DNA from: Pascua guehoae
Lineage: Eukaryota; Basidiomycota; Tremellomycetes; Trichosporonales; Trichosporonaceae
Assembly (NCBI GenBank): GCA_001600415.1
Contig: BCJX01000007.1
Location: forward strand, 838,032-902,031
Length of the DNA: 64,000 bases
Direction: 5' to 3'
The translations under genes were made by a program, and so were the position numbers. Numbering within the stretch: the stretch's first letter is position 1; each line of letters starts with the position of its first letter. Below, piece after piece: positions 5,091-49,300 of this stretch. The notes below the pieces were generated by a model. That model was not told the DNA's origin. It worked only from the letters and a program-made list of their open reading frames with translations, and did not search any database.

Positions 5091-6347
5091 GGTGAGCAAG
5101 GAATGGGTGTGTGCTCTGTCAACGTGTGTCGAGACGAGACGAGACGAGACGAGACGAGACGAGACGAGACGAGACGAGACGAGACGAGACGAGACGAGAC
5201 GAGACGAGCAATGAAGATGATGACGACGATGACAATCAATCAATTGATCAATCGTCGCGGCGCAGGAGAGAGAGAGAGAGAGTGCAAGTGGGCGGCGGCG
5301 CGAACGAGCGAGCGACCAGAGGCGAGAACGGGATCCAACGAACGGGAGAGCGATCCGAGTCAGGACGAGAGAAGAGAAGCAAAAACACGACCGTTTTTGG
5401 AAAGAAACATGTTCACATCTGTCATTTCTCGACGGGTGGCGGCGGTGGCGGCAGGCGCACATCAGGAAACACCACCCACCCAGGAGGAGGAGCAGGAGCG
5501 AGTTAGGGGGCGGGTGCATGTTTGCTGCGAGTTTTGCCTCGAGAGAGAGAGAGGCGCAGATCATTGTGTGACACGGGCCTCCACAACGCCCATCCTTTTT
5601 TTTTCCTCTGCCCATTCTACTCGTCCTACTGTACTCGTACGCCCACCAGTGCCAAGAAGATGCGTTTCCATGGTACCCCATCCTTCATCCCACTTGCCAC
5701 TGCCGCGACCTGATCCCCGATTGTCTTCGTCACCTCATCGTGCAAACTATACACACATCTTACACCCTCGTCGTCATCCGGTGACTGTGGCACATTGGGA
5801 GTGATGCCTTCGTTGTGGGCGAACAAAGCCGGTAACCGGCGAGTGGTTTGAGAGAAGAAAAAAAAAAAAAACAAGACAGGGACAAAGGACGACGAGACGA
5901 CCCACCCCGAACGCCTCGTTTTGTTATTCCGACTCTGCCCTTTACGCCGCCCCGGCTTTGGCCGGGCACTGTCCTGACCCGTCCTGACATGCACAACGTC
6001 TGACAGGCTGACACATGGCACACTTGGCACATTGCAAAGCGCGGCGGCACAGACCGTAGACCAAAGTCAATCGCGTCGCGTCGTGCATTTCATTTCCACT
6101 CTGGCGTCCATGCTGAACCTGTGAACAACTTGCTAGTGCTAGTGACACTGGGTGGCTAGACACGCTAGCCGTCTGAGAAGCTCACAGTGCGCCCGACACG
6201 CCCATGCTCACACCGCACACAGTGACTAGCAACTCTAGAGCCAGATGCATGCCACACTCTACGAACACTGCGCCAATGCGGCATCGGCCTGGCGCGTCTC
6301 CGCGCAAACCGGACGAGGCGCAGGGCACACCGCAGGGCACCGGCACA
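5091..6347. other. Intergenic region upstream of the RING gene
   Basis: About 1.26 kb between the start of the RING gene and the stop of the aldo/keto reductase, both on minus. It contains the GAGAC repeat, a GA dinucleotide run (about 5268-5281), a T-run (about 5597-5606) and an A-run (about 5858-5872). Short reading frames here overlap the repeats and show no domain. It is probably the promoter and 5' leader of the RING gene. Confidence 0.4.
5131..5208. repeat. (GAGAC)n pentanucleotide microsatellite
   Basis: Fifteen perfect GAGAC units followed by a partial unit, starting about 40 bp upstream of the RING gene start codon. It is open in several frames and translates as Arg-Asp-Glu-Thr-Arg repeats, but that is a property of the repeat and not evidence of a gene. 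Confidence 0.97.
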
Positions 6348-26356: not shown

Positions 26357-26994
26357 GGGATAATAGGAATACGTCTAGCACCCGCGCTCCTCATCCGCTT
26401 CATCATCGTCGTTGTCTTCGTGATCGTGCTCTTCGCACCCCTGCTCTCCCTCCTCTGTTCCAGCTCTCTTCTTACGTTCTGCCAGGAATTCTTCCAAACA
26501 GGCCATGCATGTAGTCCATAATGCACGCCCAGTATATTGAGTACCGGAAAGGCGCCGAGAAAGGACCAGAGCGTATGGACGTGGGGATTCAATGGCTGCT
26601 CATGGTTGATCACGATGCACACTGGGCTACGCGTGTGCATAGGCAGGCTCGTGACCATGGGCGCATGGCGAGGTCCTACAGGTAGAGGCAGCGTTGCCGC
26701 ACCGCCAAGGTTGAGGCAGTAAGCCACTCACAGAGGACCTCTAACAGGCCAGGAAGTCTTGGCAGGTGGACGTGCCTGGCGTGCCTGCTGTTACAGTCCA
26801 CCTCTCTCTTGTCACATGATGGGCTGGGTGGCAAAGACAGCTTGGTATTGGATACAACCCTCGTTGGGTTGTCACACCTCAGCAATCGTACCGTCCCTTG
26901 CACAATTCGAGAAACTCCTTGCACTCACCTGCGCAGTGAACCACCTCGTCTCTTACTACCCTCAGCTACTGTTCTCATTCCCAAAACTGAAATC
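26357..26994. other. Intergenic region upstream of the large F-box-like gene
   Basis: No gene recognised. The frame of the next gene stays open upstream to 26809, but that extension lacks codon bias and looks like 5' leader. Confidence 0.4.
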
Positions 26995-29781
26995 ATGTCA
27001 CCCAAGACACAGCGGCACTCTCCCACACCATCTCTGTACTCAACCCCAACTGCTCCTCCGGTACCCCCCACGGAACCCGACTCGCTCCTCGTGGCGTTGT
27101 ACCCGGCACTCGCCATTATCCTGTCGCGCGCCAGCTATGCTAGCCTCCTGGCATTGCGCACAACTTGCAAAGCTGTGCGGGATGCGGCCGATGTGCGGCT
27201 CATGTACCACTTGCAGATCCGGGACGACCCGACTGTCGACCCGGCGACGTATCTGGAAGACGTGCGGACACCCGGAGGGCGTATTCCAGCGTTTATGCCG
27301 CGCGAAGACGGATGCTGGCTAGGCCCCGTGAAGGTGGTAGCTACACCCGTTGCTGCAATCATCCCACCCATTTACTTGGAAGGTCTGCGTGCTGAAGGTC
27401 TGTTTGCTGAAGCTCTGCGTGCTGAAGCAGACGCCAGGACCCCAGAGCCAGAGTTGCCATTGGCCCCATTATCGGCGCCCGCTGCCGCTCAACGCGCACG
27501 CTGTCTCGAGCTGCTGGGGCACACACGTGTCCTCGATCTCATACCCGTGACCGAACCGTCCTCCTTTCCGTGGGATGCATTCGTTCCCATGCTCGACGTG
27601 CTCCGTGTGGTACCCAACGGGATCGGAGGAGTCTTTACACGGCAACCTGACGGGGGCATTCGCTGGCCGCTGCGAGCGCACACTATTGTCCTCTTTATGA
27701 CATCTCTCGCGGGAACCGGGAATGTGCTTGTCCCCGAACCCGAACAACACTGGTCCATCATGCTCCACCCGGCAGAAAAGGTGGTGGCGCACTTCATGTA
27801 CGCCGTACCAGGAGAGTATGGGGCCCAGTATGGTCTACGGTGGGCACCACGATTGGGGCTGGGTTGCGTCGGAGACATTACGCGCGAGCTTGTCCTCATC
27901 CTCTCCCCTCTGGACAGGTCATATCGAGATCTGGTCGCGAAAACCATTGCTGAATGTCGGGAGAGAGACATTGAGCACTGTCAAGGTTTCCCGACAGAGA
28001 TCCCAATTATCCGCGACTTCAGCCCCAAAGCCCGCTGGGGTTGTCTCGCTGACGCGTTTGGCCATGCTGGCGAATGGCTTGTGCGCATGACCTGCACAGT
28101 CGTCAACATTGACTGTGTCCCGCCTTTTACGCTCGGGTGGGGGAGCAGCACGCCGTCCGCTTGGATCGTCGACGAGATAGAGTCGGCTGTGGAGTTGATG
28201 GTTCTTAACACGGCATACGGCCGCCATGCCCCGGGACCAGTGTCAGCGCAGCACGTTACTCAAGCTGCCATGGCACGACTCACGTTCCTTTCGGGAATAC
28301 AGTATACGTCTGGCCTCACACGCGCCCAAACTTACGGCGAGGGTTTCCTTTCTCTACCTCCCTCCCAACAGCAGGCATTCCCCGCAGAATACCGACACCT
28401 CCTACCTGGGCCCCAAGGGCCTGTGGTTGGTCGTCTTGCGCAACGGCGCCAACCATTGCGCCCAATCTCGACCCACAGAAACTCGACAGTCTCGAGAGTC
28501 TCGACAGTCACCACTCTGCTCGACTGGAGCGCTTTCCCACACATCGGGGACCTTATCATTGAATATGCCCCTATCGCATCTCTCATGGTGCTGCGTAGTA
28601 CCAGTCGGGCATTGCGCGACCGAGTTGAATCCGTCTTGTTCAGACACATCACAATAGCACCCGGCCGCTCTGAGAAGCTGGTTGTGTCGTCGGCTCAAGG
28701 ACGCGGGCCTGTGGCGTTCTTCCCAAGTGGAATCGAGGGTTACCCACTCCGACCGCTTCCGCCATGGTTGCGGGCGACACGTCGTCGTGTTCTGGGCCTC
28801 GTCCGCATCCTCGACATGATCCACTACTCCGACGAGGACACTACTATTTTCCACTCGGCGATTTCCCACTCGGCGATTCACGACCTTGATGTCTTGCGCA
28901 TTCATCCAGGGAAGAATAATCTAATATACGGATCGATGCGGCCGTCGAGCGCTACCCTTGTCAATTTCACGACGCCGCACGGCGACCCCCCCTTTGGGCG
29001 TCCTGTTCACTGCACCAAAGTTGTTGTTCACATCCTCCATAGCGAGGGACAGGACACGCGCGGCATCCCTGACTTTTCGTTCGATTCACCGAACGTCGAT
29101 CCTCTTCTCGAGATTGTCTTGGTCCTTTCTCCCTTCAAGGACCAGTATCATCGTGTGGAAGACCGGCCAGAGACGGAGAAGAAAACGGACGGCTCTACGC
29201 CCTACCGAAAGCTGGTCGACATGGTGGCCCATGCCCTTTCATTCTACCCACTACGTCTTCCCAATCCTGATAACGAAGCTCCCAAGTTGGGCTTGATTAC
29301 GGTGACCATGGTCAACTTTCACACCGTCCCCGGGGCTTGGCTTGGTCTCGAGACCGACGACACAACCAAGATACAAGCCGATTTCACAAATGACGTGCGG
29401 AGGAACATCGCCAAAGTAGGAGACTTTCTCAAGAGCGGGTATACCCGTTGGTCTCGATGGTCTGCAGAAACGTGGGCAGAGCTTATGTCATTGGAGCGCC
29501 TACAGTGGCTCACCGGACACGAATACGTCGCGCGCATCCCTCCCGACCAGCGCGAGGTGGAATGTACCATGGAAAACGTCCCTGGTGAGAGGTACCGTCT
29601 CCTCCCCGAACCAAGCGAAGTACCGGAAACCCACGCATGGACCGCACCCGATCCGCCGTGTATGCGAACTGCCCCAGATCAGGACCGCGTGCCTTCCTTC
29701 TTCGAAGACGATAACGCGTGGGCATGGGAGTGCCCAATCTTGAATGTGAAGGAGTTGTTCGAGATTGACGAGGAAATGTAG
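26995..29781 (+). CDS. Large intronless F-box-like protein with two similar halves
   Basis: A single 928-residue exon from ATG 26995 (MSPKTQRHSPTPSLYS) to TAG 29781; the upstream extension to 26809 was rejected because it reads as leader. Two F-box-like helices occur: LSRASYASLLALRTTCKAV near residue 40 and IIEYAPIASLMVLRSTSRAL near residue 520. Each is followed by a comparable layout: ARCLELLGHTRVLDLIP against RRVLGLVRILDMIHY, LDVLRVVPNG against LDVLRIHPGK, then KVVAHFMY and a stretch LVLILSPLDRSYRD against IVLVLSPFKDQYHR. So the protein is an internal duplication. A 15-bp in-frame repeat (LRAEG/LFAEA/LRAEA) lies at 27382-27426. No catalytic motif. It resembles lineage-specific F-box-like families of Trichosporonales; function unknown. 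Confidence 0.8.
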   Translation: MSPKTQRHSPTPSLYSTPTAPPVPPTEPDSLLVALYPALAIILSRASYASLLALRTTCKAVRDAADVRLMYHLQIRDDPTVDPATYLEDVRTPGGRIPAFMPREDGCWLGPVKVVATPVAAIIPPIYLEGLRAEGLFAEALRAEADARTPEPELPLAPLSAPAAAQRARCLELLGHTRVLDLIPVTEPSSFPWDAFVPMLDVLRVVPNGIGGVFTRQPDGGIRWPLRAHTIVLFMTSLAGTGNVLVPEPEQHWSIMLHPAEKVVAHFMYAVPGEYGAQYGLRWAPRLGLGCVGDITRELVLILSPLDRSYRDLVAKTIAECRERDIEHCQGFPTEIPIIRDFSPKARWGCLADAFGHAGEWLVRMTCTVVNIDCVPPFTLGWGSSTPSAWIVDEIESAVELMVLNTAYGRHAPGPVSAQHVTQAAMARLTFLSGIQYTSGLTRAQTYGEGFLSLPPSQQQAFPAEYRHLLPGPQGPVVGRLAQRRQPLRPISTHRNSTVSRVSTVTTLLDWSAFPHIGDLIIEYAPIASLMVLRSTSRALRDRVESVLFRHITIAPGRSEKLVVSSAQGRGPVAFFPSGIEGYPLRPLPPWLRATRRRVLGLVRILDMIHYSDEDTTIFHSAISHSAIHDLDVLRIHPGKNNLIYGSMRPSSATLVNFTTPHGDPPFGRPVHCTKVVVHILHSEGQDTRGIPDFSFDSPNVDPLLEIVLVLSPFKDQYHRVEDRPETEKKTDGSTPYRKLVDMVAHALSFYPLRLPNPDNEAPKLGLITVTMVNFHTVPGAWLGLETDDTTKIQADFTNDVRRNIAKVGDFLKSGYTRWSRWSAETWAELMSLERLQWLTGHEYVARIPPDQREVECTMENVPGERYRLLPEPSEVPETHAWTAPDPPCMRTAPDQDRVPSFFEDDNAWAWECPILNVKELFEIDEEM

Positions 29782-37505: not shown

Positions 37506-39226
37506 CTATGCCTGGATGAGATCCTCCTCAATCTCCTGCTTCTCCTCGACGACAACGGGCTTTGGCGGCGGAACGCCCTCCATTGCCCTGCGGACCTTTT
37601 TAGGCGGACGGGCAGCGTCCACATTGGTGGCCAGAATGGAGACGAGGCGGTCGAGTCCCGTGCCAAACTTTGCACTGACGACGAGGACTTCTGCGCGCGA
37701 CTCGTCATGTTCCTTGACCGCCTCCTCGAGCGCGGCCACCTTGGCTTTGACATCGTCCTCGTCAAGCTCGTCCGTCTTGTTCAGCGCAACGATGCGCGCA
37801 CGCTCCGCGAGGCCGGGCTTGTACGCCTCGAGCTCGGCGCGCAGCGTGGCAAGGTCGGCGACAGGGTCTGGGCGGCGCGCGTCGAGGACGTACGTGAGTG
37901 CAAGCGAGCGCTCGATGGAACGGAGGAACGAGTGGCCAAGGCCGACGTTTTCAGACGCGCGGGCCAGCAGACCCGGGTTGTCGGATACGGTAAACCGTGT
38001 CTTTTCGAGCAGGCGGTGGGTGCGTGGGGCTCGCGGGAGGGGCTTGTAGTCACCCCGCTCGCGAGCCGCAGCATCGGCTTCACGCTCAGTCTCGGTCTCT
38101 TCCACGGGACTGTCGGGGGCGGCTACCCAGGACCCATCCTCGAGCACACGCACAACGCCAATCTGCGGGTGCAGGGTTGTGAACGCGTAGTTTGCGACCT
38201 CGGCACGGCGACCGGTCAGCGCGCGGAGGAGCGTACTCTTGCCCGCATTGGGAAGGCCCACAAGACCAACGTCTGCGAGGAGCTTGAGCTCAAACTCAAA
38301 TGTGCGTGTTGCAGGCAACACTCCACGGGAGGCGACGCGTGGGTGCCGGATTGTGGGTGACACAAAGTGCGGGTTACCGAGGCCGCCCACGCCACCACGC
38401 GAGAGGAGGATGGGTGTGTCGAGTGGCTCTGCAATGTCAAGCGTGAGCGCTGGTTCGACGTCGAAACCCGGCGTAGCTCTTGTCCATCGCCCAGACTGCC
38501 GCAGGAGCGTTTCTGCCTCTTTGACGTCACGATCTGATGCCTCAAAGTTTGGGTGCTGGACCAGCCACCGCTCGCGTGTCAACCGCCGGCGCTCCGCACG
38601 ATCCAGACCCAGCGCGTCTGCCTCGCGTCCGTTCTTCTCCGCTTCACCCTCACGTGAGATTTCGCGAATCACCGTGCCCACAGGCACAGTGACAACCACG
38701 TCCTCGCCGCGTCGCCCGTGCCGAAGGTTGCCTGCACCGTGCCCGCCCTGTCCGCCGATCAGTCGCTTGGCCACTGTTGACAGAGATGTCAGGTGTGTCG
38801 ACGTCTGCAGGTATACCGAACCCCCAGGCCCGCCGTTGCCACCCGACGGGGGACCGAGGCCGCGCTTTGTTGGGAGAAACGCAGATGTCCCCGAGCCGCC
38901 CTTGCCGCCGCGTACGGTCACGCGCAAGAAATCGACAAAGTCTCCACCCTAATCTGAGTTAGTCATCGTGGAAGAAATCGGAAGCGAGATATCGATTCCC
39001 CACATACCTGTCGCTTGCGCTTGATCTCCATCTTCTTGCGGCGCCGGTGCAGCTCGCCAATGACGTCGTCAAACTCGTCCTCATCCTCGTCGATGGCTTG
39101 TGGGTATGGCGACGAGGTCGAGGAGGCGCGGGTAGCCAAAGCTATTGGGCGGATGAACAGCGCCCGTTGTGATCGAGTCGCTTGAAGGCATGTTCCGCAA
39201 CGAGGCGTGAGCTGCAAGACGCGCAT
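37506..39226 (-). CDS. MTG2: Mitochondrial Obg-family GTPase (MTG2/GTPBP5-like)
   Basis: GTPase that assists assembly of the large mitochondrial ribosomal subunit. Two exons (39008-39226 and 37506-38948) give 553 residues. The first encodes a basic, Ser/Arg-rich mitochondrial presequence (MRVLQLTPRCGTCLQATRSQ). The Obg domain starts at GGDFVDFLRVTVRGGKGGSG with its glycine-rich helices (PPSGGNGGPGGSVYL, GGQGGHGAGNLRHG). An insertion of about 80 residues separates it from LLSRGGVGGLGNPHF. The G domain has G1 GLPNAGKST, G2-region TLHPQIGVV, G3 DNPGL, G4 NKTD and G5 SAK. G3 is DNPG where DIPG is usual. Acidic C-terminal tail. It is divergent from the kynurenine monooxygenase gene, whose product is a mitochondrial outer-membrane enzyme. 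Confidence 0.92.
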
Positions 39227-39738
39227 GGTGTGTTGACAAGAGGGTGACCAACGAAGCCGACAACATTCGAAAATGGACAAGATTGAGCATGCCCGGAACC
39301 TGGTGAATTGGTGACCGGCGGTTGTTGGTGCGTCACATGGCCTCCACCAGGCACAGAATGAAAATATCTCCCCTCCCATGTGGGATATTTGGCTCCGTTA
39401 ATCCCATTACGTTTTCTTATCAGAGTTTTGATTAGCAAGCGCAGTCAGATTGGTGGCAAACAGCTGGGGTTGAGAAGGAGAAAGTGGGCGATGAGGGGCG
39501 ATTGGGATTGGTTGGCATGACGTGCTCCTTTTTGGGTCGTGTGCCTGGGCGCTGCTGTTTTTGCGACCCGAGCCGATATCTGGCCATCACGAGTGGCCCC
39601 CTTTGGTGGCATGGCGTTGGCACCGGGCACCGGCTAGAGTCTGTCTTATTGACTGCCCATATTTACTGCCCATATTTCCGAGTCGACACCCCCAAGTCGT
39701 CTGACTTTTCCAAGTCACCAACTATACTCCCCATCACC
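39227..39738. promoter_or_regulatory. Divergent promoter between MTG2 and BNA4
   Basis: A 512-bp region between divergent starts. No clear TATA box; a repeated ATTTACTGCCCATATTT motif lies just upstream of BNA4 (about 39653-39678). Confidence 0.4.
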
Positions 39739-41643
<1,905 letters not shown>

Positions 41644-43308: not shown

Positions 43309-43386
43309 ACATTGTTGGTGAAATGGTATCATTCCTTCTTCCCATGGCGTTCGGAGGTGGCGGGGGTTCGATTCCCTCACAATGTA
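43309..43386 (+). tRNA. tRNA-Gly(CCC) with a 7-nt intron
   Basis: Cloverleaf: acceptor ACATTGT (43309-43315) with ACAATGT (43379-43385), seven perfect pairs; D stem GTGA/TCAT around AATGGTA; anticodon stem CCTTC (43334-43338) with GGAGG (43353-43357, one G-U); anticodon CCC at 43341-43343; T stem GGGGG/CCCTC with loop TTCGATT; discriminator A. Pairing requires a 7-nt intron (43345-43351, TGGCGTT) after position 37. C2-G71 and A73 agree with glycine identity. A1-U72 is unusual and lowers confidence a little. Confidence 0.78.
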
Positions 43387-43411: not shown

Positions 43412-43423
43412 AGGCATCGTGGT

Positions 43424-43490
43424 GGGTGGTAGTGGTGGTGGCAATGGTGATGGTGATGGTGATGGTGGTGGTGATGGTGGTGGTGGCGGT
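43424..43490. repeat. (GGT/GAT)n microsatellite
   Basis: Run of GGTGGT and GATGGT trinucleotides just downstream of the tRNA-Gly gene. Confidence 0.9.
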
Positions 43491-43655: not shown

Positions 43656-43733
43656 GCACAGGAAGCACGGGAAGCACAGAAAGCACAGAAAGCACAGAAA
43701 GCACAGAAAGCACAGAAAGCACAAGCTCGTGTC
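43656..43733. repeat. 9-bp tandem repeat (CACAGAAAG)n
   Basis: About eight copies, the first three degenerate (CACAGGAAG, CACGGGAAG). In the 43628 plus-strand frame it encodes Ser-Thr-Glu repeats. Confidence 0.9.
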
Positions 43734-44768: not shown

Positions 44769-45145
44769 TCACTTTCCCCCGCCCCAGGACGTATCCATGT
44801 CGGTATCCTGCTTGACGCGCGCAACCATATCACGCTTCCCGCCGCCCCACGACGTATCCATGTCTGTGTCGTGCTTGGCGCGCTCGACGACATCGCGCTC
44901 CTCGGCGTCACGCTTCCCGCCGCCCCAGGACGTGTCTCTGTGTGTGTCGTGCTTGGCCCGCTCGACCAGACGTTTCCCGCCACCCCAGGAGGTATCCATG
45001 TCCGTGTCGTGCTTGGCGCGCTTGACCTGTTGTGTGAGCACCCGCGCTGGCACTCTTATTGGACACGTACCGCGTCGTGGTCGACGGGGGCTGCGGTCGT
45101 GGTGGCGAGGAGGGTCAGGAGGGCGAGGGAGAGGATGAGTTTCAT
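44769..45145 (-). CDS. Secreted repeat-peptide precursor with Lys-Arg (Kex2-type) sites
   Basis: Exon 1 (45071-45145, MKLILSLALLTLLATTTAAP) is a textbook signal peptide. A 44-nt intron with a GTACGT donor (45027-45070) leads to exon 2 (44769-45026), giving 110 residues. After VKR (residues 26-28) come four copies of a 14-residue unit: AKHDTDMDTSWGGG (29-42), AKHDTHRDTSWGGG (49-62), the first version again (75-88), and VKQDTDMDTSWGGGK (96-110) at the C-terminus. Units 1-3 are each followed by KR; spacers LVER, DAEERDVVER and DMVAR precede units 2-4. This is the plan of alpha-factor precursors and other Kex2-processed repeat proteins: entry to the secretory pathway, then cleavage after KR into several copies of one peptide. 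No CaaX box, so it is not a lipidated basidiomycete pheromone. A TATA-like ACATAAAGAG lies about 65 bp upstream. No modifying enzymes are adjacent. Confidence 0.8.
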
Positions 45146-46351
45146 TGGGAGAGTTGTGCAGGTTGCAGGTGGTGGAAGTGTGGGGTTCCAGTGGCATGGG
45201 GGCAGCTCTTTATGTGTTGTGTCATGTGCACCCGATTGCCACTCTGTTGGCAGCAGTGCTGAGCCCCAGTCTCTACCCCAGATGCTGAACACGCTCACCC
45301 AAGGAACTCCCCCTCCCCCGTCCCCCCTTGGCCTCTCCCGCCGCGTCGCAGGGTCTCTGTGGTCCGCTGGAGACCCCAACTCCTATGCGTTCTTACTGAA
45401 TAGACGACGGAACGAGGATGAATGACGCCACGTCTCGATAGAGTGACGGCACATGTGGCGCGCGCTAGGTTAATTGAATCAATCTTGCGTCAGTTTGTGG
45501 CACAGTACAGGCGAGGCGGGGTTTCTTGGCACGGGCTAGGCTGGGCTGTTTTAATTCTTTTCTCAAACGGCCCTTGGTCACACGACTGGCGATCAGTGCT
45601 AACGAGCGTTGAAGTGGGATTTCTCCTCAGAACCCCGACCCTACCTTACCTTCTTTTGCGTAATCACCGACGTTCGGCATTTGAGTGGGACGGAGTTCAA
45701 GGTGAGAGGCTCTCTCTTCTCTGTTCGACTTGATGGTTCAGAGGTATTCTACTCGCCCTGATGCGGGCCATGAAAGCCGCAAAAGCTCGCGCCGGTGGTG
45801 GGACGGTACCCGTGGCGCAATAGATCACTATGTCCCAGTCGAAGTTTGCGGCATTTTGTCGCTGGTGATTCTGAAGGGTATGAATCAGGCCAGTAGCGCC
45901 GCGTGCGCCTCCGACAGAATTCGAAGCCATTCTGCAGGAAAGACGATATATACAATCACAGAGGATGTGGCTCAGCGCATCACGGTTACCCAAATCTCTC
46001 AACACGAGCAAATCACAGATCCACCAGCAGACGTCTCCAGACGAGCCTTGACGTGCTCTAGCTCTAGTTGAATAAGTGTCATTGATGAAATACGAAAATC
46101 CCTCTGCCGCCAATGTAACGCGACTCTAACTGTAACCATGTAAGCCGTCCGTGGCGCTGGGTGGCGCAATAATGCTCTCCCCAGCGCCATCTCCATCCCC
46201 CAGCTCTGTATGCCGGCATGCCTCTATGCAAGTGAGGGTGTACCCCAACTCGGGTTCGGCAGGCTCCTTGTAATAGCCTGCCATGTAAACCCTCCCTCAC
46301 CATCTCCTCTAGATCCCTATGCCCCCTCCTTCGCCCTCCCCCAAATACCCC
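45146..46351. other. Gene-free region upstream of the repeat-peptide gene
   Basis: About 1.2 kb containing the presumed promoter of the peptide gene and the 3' flank of the fusion gene. A minus frame at 45697-46113 is open but has no domain, signal or splice partner. Confidence 0.4.
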
Positions 46352-49300
46352 CTACGCCCGCTCCCTCCGCGCGCGCTCGACGAGCCCCCACGCCGCCTGG
46401 CCCGCCACATCGTCGACGACCTCGACGGCGCCAAACTCGACACCGCGCGCGCGGCACATGTCGAGCAGGACTTTGCGGTAGGCGTCCTGGCGCACGACGC
46501 CGCCACCACACACGAGAGACGCCGAGGCGAGCGTGCGATGTTGACCGTTGGGGAGCGGCTTGTCGCCGAGCTGGTTCCAGAGGTGGGCAATGGCCTCGGC
46601 CAGCGGGGCCGCGGCGTCGCGGACCGCCTGTGCCGCGAGCGGGTCGGGAGGCGAGCGGGAAAATGCTTCGAGGACGAGGCGCGCCGTACTCGAGATGCGC
46701 AGCTTTTGGGCGTTGGTCGCTTCGATCGGGCCGAGGGTGGGGTCCAGCTCGTGCTGGGTGTGAGCATGAGTCGGGGGGAGCAGGTGGACGCATAGGTTGT
46801 TGTCGGCCCCGACTCGGTACGCATGTGCAATACCCAGTAGGCACACCACTCACAACCTTGAACAGCAACTCGCCCGTCTCCTTGACACCAAAGTGTCGCC
46901 GGATATCCTCGACCAGACCGCCGGCGACCTCCTTGCCCGCGTCATAGTCGTGCACGGCTGCACGGATCGCACACCGGCCGACGTCGTACGCGCTCCCGTC
47001 GTCGCCCAAAAGGTAACCGTGCCCTCCGCGACGGGCCACTTGGACAACCTCGCCGTCCGCGTCGACGTCGAGCCCAACGCAAATGCTGCCCGTACCTGCT
47101 ATCACTGCGATTCCCCAGGGGTTACCGTGGGCGAGGAGGGCGCCGCCGAGGAGAAGAGCGTCATTGTGCACGCTAATGTGTGTGTTGAAAAAAGGCGAGA
47201 GGAGCGCGGACATCCGGGATTGGTCGAGCGGAGTGTCGCAGCCGGAAATCTGCGGTTAGTGAGAGAACAAGAGGGAGGAATGGTGAGAGGTGGTAGGTTG
47301 TGTGTAGGTGCGTGGGTTGAGGATAAAAGGGGTGGATGGTAGGTGCGGCCGAGAGTGGCTGAGGCAGGGGACGAGGGTCGGAAGGTAGATGGCAAGGGTG
47401 CCCGGCAATGAAGCTCGGGGTGGTGGTCGGAGCTGAGGAGGGTTTGAGGACGGGATTGGAGAGGACGGGATTGGGGAATTGACGACGGGGTTGAGAAAGG
47501 GGTTGAGAGGGATTCGAGAAGGAGGTTGAGGAGAGGGGTTGAGAGGATGGCTGACGAGGCTGGATGGAGGGACGAAAGAGGCTGGGATATTGACGAGGAA
47601 GAGCTGAGGGCATCAAGGGCACGTTGCTAGCAGGAAAGCAAGGGCGTGTGGACGAGCACAGCGGGGGAGCGAGGCAGGAGCATCAAACGTAGAAGGGGAA
47701 TGAGTGAGAGGGAGGAAAGTGACAAGAGGAGGAGACTGAGGGAGGGCCAGAGATGGCTAAGAGAGGGCTGAGATATAGGAAGCTGAGGATTTGGGCATAA
47801 ACTGGGGCTGAGGCTGAATGAGGAGATTGAGGGAAGGGGAAGAGGGCTGAGAAGCGCGAGGAGCGCAGGTCGCATGCAGGGAGAGGAGACGGGGGACAAG
47901 ACTTGGAATAGCAAGGAATACCCACCCCTAGCCAGACATCCTTGAGGGGGACGGGACAGCGGTTGGCTGCACTGGACGTGTCGTAGCCCATCATCTCGGC
48001 CGCCTTGCGGACAGTCTCGCAGATCCTGGCACATTGTCAGTTTTTCTTGTGCAATGCTTGTCTGCTTGTGTCGTACGTCTCAAAAGACCGCTGCAGCCCG
48101 ATTTCGGCCATGTTTCCCGTGGGGCCAATTGCGCGCGCGCGCTCGCCGGCCGCGGATACGACGACGACCTCGGTCTTGGTGCCACCACACTATGCATCAG
48201 TCATTCTGCGCGGCCCGGCGGGGGAGCGGGACGCACGTCAATGCACGCAAACAGCACCTCGTCAGTGTGGGCCATGGTGCCATTGGGAGCAGCGGCGGCC
48301 ATGGTACCATTAGTCTTGGTAGCAACCGCCTTTGACTCTGTGGTTGGTTCACCATTGACGTCGGCGTTACGCGTGAACGCAACCGTGCACACGGTCTGGC
48401 CGGTACTTCCACCAAACGAGAATGACTTGTGGGGGACACTCGAGCTTCGGGGGTGTCAGCGGCGTGACAGCTGTCTCACAAGGGAATAAGTGACGTACTG
48501 GAAAGTGAACGGGACACCCGGACGTGTGTAGCGCTTCTTGACCTCTTCCTCTGTAAAGTTACAGCTGGTGATAAGGAAGAAGCCTCCGGGGCGGACGAGG
48601 CGTGCGACGCGTTCTGGGTAGACCTGAGACGGAAGGCGGCCGCCTGCCTCCTCCACGGGATCGTCAGACAAGGCGAGCGCGTCAAACGTGCCCTTGTCCA
48701 TGACAACGTCCCACGTCTCGCCGATATCGTCGCGGAGCAGGTCGCCTGTACGCCACTCGCACGTAGCGTCGTTGGCAACGTCTCCTGCCTCCTCGTCGAT
48801 AACGTCCTCGTCGCCCTCCTCGATCGCTTCGCGCCGCGCTGCCTCGACGCTCGCACCTAGTGACACTGCACCAGCAGAGTAGTCAATGCCCGTGAGGTGG
48901 AACGACTGAGCCGGCTCCGGACCCGTGAGGAGCGACAAGAGGAGGGTGCCGTTGCCGCTCCCGCATTCGAGGACGCGGATGGGTTTCGACGACCGCGGCA
49001 CGTTGGCGTACACCCACGAACGCATCTTGGACACGCTGTCTTCTCCAAACCTGGGTGTCAGACGAGGGGACATACAGAGAACGGGTCCAAGAGGGACTGT
49101 TGGAAGGAGACATGGACACACCAGACCTCGCCCTCGTCACCAATGTCCTGGGGGTCAGCGCTGCCGTGTCGCTCCAGGACTCACGTTGAACACGCGGTTC
49201 TCGCGCCTACTGTCAGCGTGAGGCCGTGGAGGCGTCGCTTACTCGTAGACCATGTCCCAGTGCTCCTGTGCGGTCAGCAAGGGCGGACACACTAGCGTCG

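Follow-up and report, generated by a model that had tools for sequence, protein, structure and literature searches.

We describe a gene on the minus strand (45145-44769) of a 64,000-nucleotide stretch of the Pascua guehoae genome (contig BCJX01000007.1, positions 838,032 to 902,031), called the window here, whose 110-residue product is very probably a KEX2-processed repeat protein (KEP), as judged from its predicted architecture. The protein combines a signal-peptide-like start with a 14-residue unit that occurs four times, and it is probably a stand-alone (orphan) KEP with a linear product. It is not a new kind of precursor: its plan belongs to a published and very diverse class. An initial annotation of this DNA had proposed a Kex2-type secreted repeat precursor, which agrees with the fit to the KEP criteria described below; that observation is confirmed, and its interpretation is partly supported. 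In calling the precursor "new-looking" it went too far, as the surveys cited here report thousands of KEPs, many of them orphans (PMC6339444, PMC7329392), including one from the same order, in Trichosporon (Cutaneotrichosporon) oleaginosus, with the peptide QSWGGCGGRGTPCW (PMC6339444).

Architecture of the precursor

Translation of the minus strand between 45145 and 44769 opens with MKLILSLALLTLLATTTAAPVDHDA, followed by a 44-nt stretch (GTACGT...ACAG) and then by the exon that carries the four units; the 110-residue product is obtained once this single putative GT-AG intron is removed (Table 1). Retention of the intron (45070-45027) would bring an in-frame stop after 29 residues. It contains TGCTCAC, which we take to be a branch-like motif. 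A precedent for its size and signals comes from the KEX2-type gene of the same genome, where we infer an intron of 50 nt (GTGAGT...GCAG): when GT[AG]...[CT]AG pairs 36 to 69 nt apart were tried there, one pair only kept the frame open. Coordinates, intron, protein length, signal peptide and the four units, three of them followed by Lys-Arg (KR), are as the initial annotation had given them, the strand being minus.

The start of the precursor resembles a strong signal peptide, and the protein is probably secreted. In N-terminal hydrophobicity its start Met ranks fifth among the 1140 ATG-started open stretches of the window, and first of the 263 that in addition carry Lys or Arg among residues 2-5 and have a small-x-small motif; this score is our own rather than that of SignalP, and the cleavage site is inferred. 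Beyond residue 19 there is no hydrophobic 19-residue stretch (highest mean -0.85, not a TMHMM result).

The repeat unit follows the pattern [AV]K[HQ]DTxxDTSWGGG, with KR after three copies and a Lys and the stop codon after the last, such that the protein ends in SWGGGK. Four KR dipeptides are the only dibasic pairs in the precursor. Tyr and Cys are missing from all 110 residues and Pro from the units. Each of the four cores is preceded by V-x-R (VKR, VER, VER and VAR), which coincides with KR in the first case only.

Probable selection on the minus-strand frame

The four units, taken as 54 nt each, vary at 18 of 54 columns. Over the six pairs of units there are 36.5 silent differences compared to 19.5 replacement differences, giving a proportion of differences of 0.52 at silent sites (pS) and 0.077 at replacement sites (pN). 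None of 5000 column shuffles reached the observed pS/pN, a result to be read as a guide and not as an exact probability because the test assumes independent columns. In the 45-nt core, 11 of the 14 variable columns are third positions (binomial p 0.0007, with the gene frame alone scored). Since the differences between units are mostly silent, the minus-strand frame looks to be under selection. It has the highest pS/pN of the frames (6.73), and its codon-usage log-odds are +17.1 bits, although the codon table behind them is thin, its 1411 codons coming from a single gene with Pfam support and a single long open frame presumed to code. The latter (26686-29781, plus strand) runs for 1031 codons without interruption and appears by eye to consist of two tandem F-box-like halves.

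It is very unlikely that the array is instead a noncoding tandem repeat or part of a plus-strand gene, with the minus-strand protein an accident. Within part of the array a 60-bp tandem repeat was scored, two copies long, and one antisense frame, also open over the repeats, shows a silent-site excess of its own (pS/pN 4.25). This excess is explained by the third positions of that frame facing those of the minus-strand gene, and its codon usage is poor (-10.6 bits). A second plus-strand frame has codon usage of +15.7 bits, close to that of the minus frame, and a synonymous-codon score of 12.4 compared to 7.6 for the gene frame, but it fails the silent-site test (pS/pN 0.29). Each plus-strand frame therefore fails one of the two tests in which the minus frame is best, and a signal peptide followed by in-frame, KR-flanked units occurs on the minus strand only.

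Class membership and predicted processing

Two surveys define KEPs. Le Marquer 2019 (PMC6339444) asks for an N-terminal signal peptide and no further membrane segment (SignalP, TMHMM), at least four fragments between KR or RR sites, a motif in at least three of the non-C-terminal ones, and a motif share of at least 15% of the protein. Umemura 2020 (PMC7329392) asks for at least three tandem repeats, each 8 to 100 residues long, between Kex2 sites, and reports 7878 KEPs, 2560 of them stand-alone; Tremellomycetes have few KEPs, 1.00 per strain on average. The precursor described here divides into five fragments, with the motif in three inner ones and in the C-terminal one (found by identity and not by FIMO), and the units make up 4 x 14 of 110 residues, or 51%. 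Its repeats also agree with the Umemura definition, as compared with the published wording and not with the repeat-scoring code. Both definitions fit except in the signal peptide and membrane part, which we judged by hydrophobicity rather than by SignalP and TMHMM. In common with the KEPs of both surveys, the precursor carries three or more repeats of at least 8 residues between KR sites, the repeats filling about half of the protein, and has no hydrophobic stretch past the signal peptide; it differs from them in its unit sequence, unmatched in our searches, and in the V-x-R before each core.

A KEP host is expected to have Kex2, and a Kex2-type P domain was found in the genome as two exon pieces of one gene (P_proprotein, 4.9e-16 and 4.3e-5), an assignment that refers to the P domain and not to the catalytic domain. 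The first piece counts one in-frame TGA, at the exon end, and the frame of the second shows, by eye, a membrane segment and an acidic tail downstream. The genome also has a DPPIV_N domain (DPPIV/Ste13-type).

We propose that the precursor would enter the secretory pathway, that Kex2 would cleave after each KR, and that a Kex1-type carboxypeptidase would remove the trailing Lys and Arg. With only a Lys behind the last unit, the same trimming would leave an SWGGG terminus on all four products, which would be secreted as linear, unmodified peptides of 14-24 residues. The initial annotation had expected several copies of one product; cutting at KR alone gives instead four unlike peptides with a common core, of 14, 18, 24 and 20 residues, the 20-mer including the final Lys. 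An additional cut at the conserved V-x-R, or N-terminal trimming, could turn all of them into 14-mers. The V-x-R before the last three cores may represent decayed KR sites or remnants of a duplicated unit. Work on Coprinopsis found KEP peptides in linear form with minimal modification and still saw them in every kex knockout, and knocking out six KEPs produced no axenic phenotype (PMC9769878).

In addition to the codon usage of the second plus-strand frame, several observations weigh against the KEP reading. KR directly before the core is missing in three of the four units, and dibasic cutting alone would make the N-termini of all four peptides differ, where a typical pheromone precursor gives uniform products. 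Unit 2 departs from the other cores at two adjacent residues. Moreover, no relative was seen in protein, viral or prokaryote searches, and a signalling role is drawn by analogy only. As a KEP that looks selected and for which exact masses can be predicted, the precursor is a handy test case; the calculated average mass of the 14-mer AKHDTDMDTSWGGG is 1477.51. It shows no new principle.

Possible roles of the peptides

Basidiomycete KEPs have been proposed in general to serve communication or interaction with other organisms, and by analogy we consider the chances about even that the P. guehoae peptides do so. One form that such a role could take, also compatible with the KEP reading, is that of an alpha-pheromone-like peptide, mating or non-mating, acting via a G-protein-coupled receptor. 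We regard this as unlikely. The overall plan of precursor is equal to that of alpha-pheromones, and the genome has the DPPIV/Ste13-type domain mentioned above. Saccharomyces cerevisiae MF(ALPHA)1 likewise combines a signal peptide, KR-associated repeats and Kex1/Kex2 logic (PMC6339444), with EA/DA spacers where the P. guehoae spacers are irregular. The T. oleaginosus KEP, for which action on a G-protein-coupled receptor has been suggested, has alpha-pheromone features and shares with our precursor the order Trichosporonales, the precursor plan and the tetrapeptide SWGG; its two Cys, PCW end and STE13 signatures, as described in the survey, have no counterpart here (PMC6339444). The common SWGG is a lead and not a test of homology. 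Against a pheromone, the dipeptides after the four KR sites (AK, LV, DA and DM) include one of the XA/XP type expected for STE13 and not a consistent series, and the units contain neither Cys nor Pro. A genome-wide search at E<=1 gave no STE2 match, whereas STE3 was found by the same method (5e-43); the absence of STE2 is nevertheless unproven, because the STE2 search matched none of 14 control genomes. In 24 Trichosporonales species each mating-type (MAT) locus is reported to hold STE3 together with a single pheromone precursor gene (PMC6730849), but in P. guehoae the precursor lies on contig C7 and STE3 on C5.

The STE3-type receptor gene (C5:891564-892495, minus strand) was matched in two pieces, one with three in-frame stops and the other with one, which most likely mark introns. 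A basidiomycete a-type pheromone was considered and rejected: it needs a CaaX end and has no signal peptide, whereas the precursor ends in SWGGGK, without a CaaX box as previously noted, and starts like a signal peptide. Cryptococcus Qsp1 is another short secreted peptide of a Tremellomycete; we take it to be made as a single peptide and not in tandem units.

An antimicrobial, metal-binding or surface-acting secreted peptide that is not a signal would also be compatible with the KEP reading, and we consider it a less probable, though not far-fetched, role. Among the functions reported for repeat proteins cut by Kex2 are those of effector, water-repellent and membrane-damaging peptide (PMC7329392). 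The computed core charges at pH 7 are -2.1, 0.0, -2.1 and -2.3 for units 1 to 4, and nothing past the signal peptide is hydrophobic. Classical antimicrobial peptides are cationic. The initial annotation had suggested a signalling or antimicrobial peptide; with cores 1, 3 and 4 acidic and core 2 near neutral, a classical cationic antimicrobial is less likely, and the peptides may serve either use. For metal binding there is D-x-D-x-D in units 1, 3 and 4 and an A-K-H start after the first KR, which we presume could bind copper or nickel. However, cutting at KR would expose A-K-H in unit 1 alone, and unit 4 has Gln for His. A Trichosporonales-specific system of uniform 14-mers, produced by KR and V-x-R cuts and acting as a copper-, nickel- or calcium-binding signal outside the MAT pheromone pathway, seems to us highly improbable; its presumed basis would be the A-K-H start (copper/nickel) and the D-x-D-x-D core.

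A precursor of a cyclised or otherwise modified peptide of the dikaritin (ustiloxin) type, a class of ribosomally synthesized and post-translationally modified peptides, would share the plan of a signal peptide and Kex2-bounded repeats (PMC7329392). We think this scarcely probable. The core has no Tyr, which disfavours dikaritin-type cyclisation. No UstYa or tyrosinase domain was found at E<=0.001 in any of the 204 open stretches of at least 90 codons that start between 28 and 64 kb. All 204 were scanned with Pfam, nine of them with their first codon read as Met; shorter exons are missed. This result fits a linear product and agrees with the earlier statement that no such enzymes lie nearby. 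UstYa also gave no match genome-wide, but no control genome matched either.

Relatives of the precursor

At E<=10, neither of two protein searches scored a match, although 1058 and 969 candidates shared words with the precursor; to be seen by such a search, a protein must be close to the precursor in length and have exact 5-residue words in common with it. The searched set includes some relatives, since the Obg-type GTPase of the window (8000 candidates scored) matched proteins of Cutaneotrichosporon oleaginosum (73%), C. spelunceum (72%) and Vanrija humicola (70%) among those listed, while the top match, to another protein, reached 79%. These matches place the fungus in or near Trichosporonales. 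The orthologue that the initial annotation proposed to look for in relatives thus did not appear in this set. Its absence does not refute the gene and is weak evidence for a lineage-specific one, because spliced genes of small size could be absent from that set of proteins.

Within its own genome a single locus was found, in searches that score the best candidates only; the motif pattern matched four times, always inside the precursor gene, compared to one match for the reversed control. Pattern scans of viral and prokaryote contigs returned 1 and 13 hits, respectively; tblastn upheld none of them, which is no surprise for a gene of fungal origin. A genome search for a relative of the QSWGGCGG...PCW type returned 18 and 21 scattered single matches, compared to 18 and 12 for reversed controls, and no clusters. 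Three Pfam matches to the precursor, all under the cut-off (E of at least 0.04), were taken as chance. As the initial annotation had held, no known family with this core was recognised in the searches. No fungal SWGGG peptide turned up in our literature searches; the two KEP surveys may already include this gene, or an orthologue of it, in their supplementary tables.

Genomic neighbourhood

Genes identified around the precursor are listed with its parts in Table 1. The methyltransferase, about 3.3 kb away, might be a partner of the precursor.

Table 1. Parts of the precursor gene and domains recognised around it (positions in the window)
Feature	Position	Strand	Basis or context
Exon 1, 25 codons	45071..45145	-	Predicted signal peptide MKLILSLALLTLLATTTA(A) and start of short pro-segment; by translation
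Phase-0 intron, 44 nt, GTACGT...ACAG	45027..45070	-	Predicted from sequence
Exon 2 (four KR sites, four units, stop)	44769..45026	-	Translation, codon usage
Unit 1, AKHDTDMDTSWGGG	44976..45017	-	KR site on either side
Unit 2, AKHDTHRDTSWGGG	44916..44957	-	KR-LVER before, KR after
Unit 3, AKHDTDMDTSWGGG	44838..44879	-	KR-DAEERDVVER before, KR after
Unit 4, VKQDTDMDTSWGGG	44775..44816	-	KR-DMVAR before, Lys then stop after
Obg GTPase	37509-38948		Pfam
FAD-dependent oxidoreductase, start	39436-39966		Pfam, under curated cut-off
BadF-type ATPase, fragment	46320-47255		Pfam, under curated cut-off
Methyltransferase	48459-49136		Pfam, 35.7 bits vs cut-off 27; best solved match 2pxx, 3.4e-05
DHDPS, sugar transporter, RWD, glycosyltransferase N-domain	among stretches of 28-64 kb		Pfam

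A tRNA-Gly gene (CCC) of 78 nt lies about 1.4 kb from the precursor gene (43309-43386, plus strand). Next to a GTG-rich run at 43419-43490 there is a 9-bp minisatellite, GCACAGAAA, with 7.6 copies (43656-43723, plus strand); both stretches contain long open frames, made of HRK, TES or FCA repeats, that seem to be artefacts of the repetition. Elsewhere in the window, at 5130-5208, the pentanucleotide CGAGA is repeated perfectly 15.8 times.
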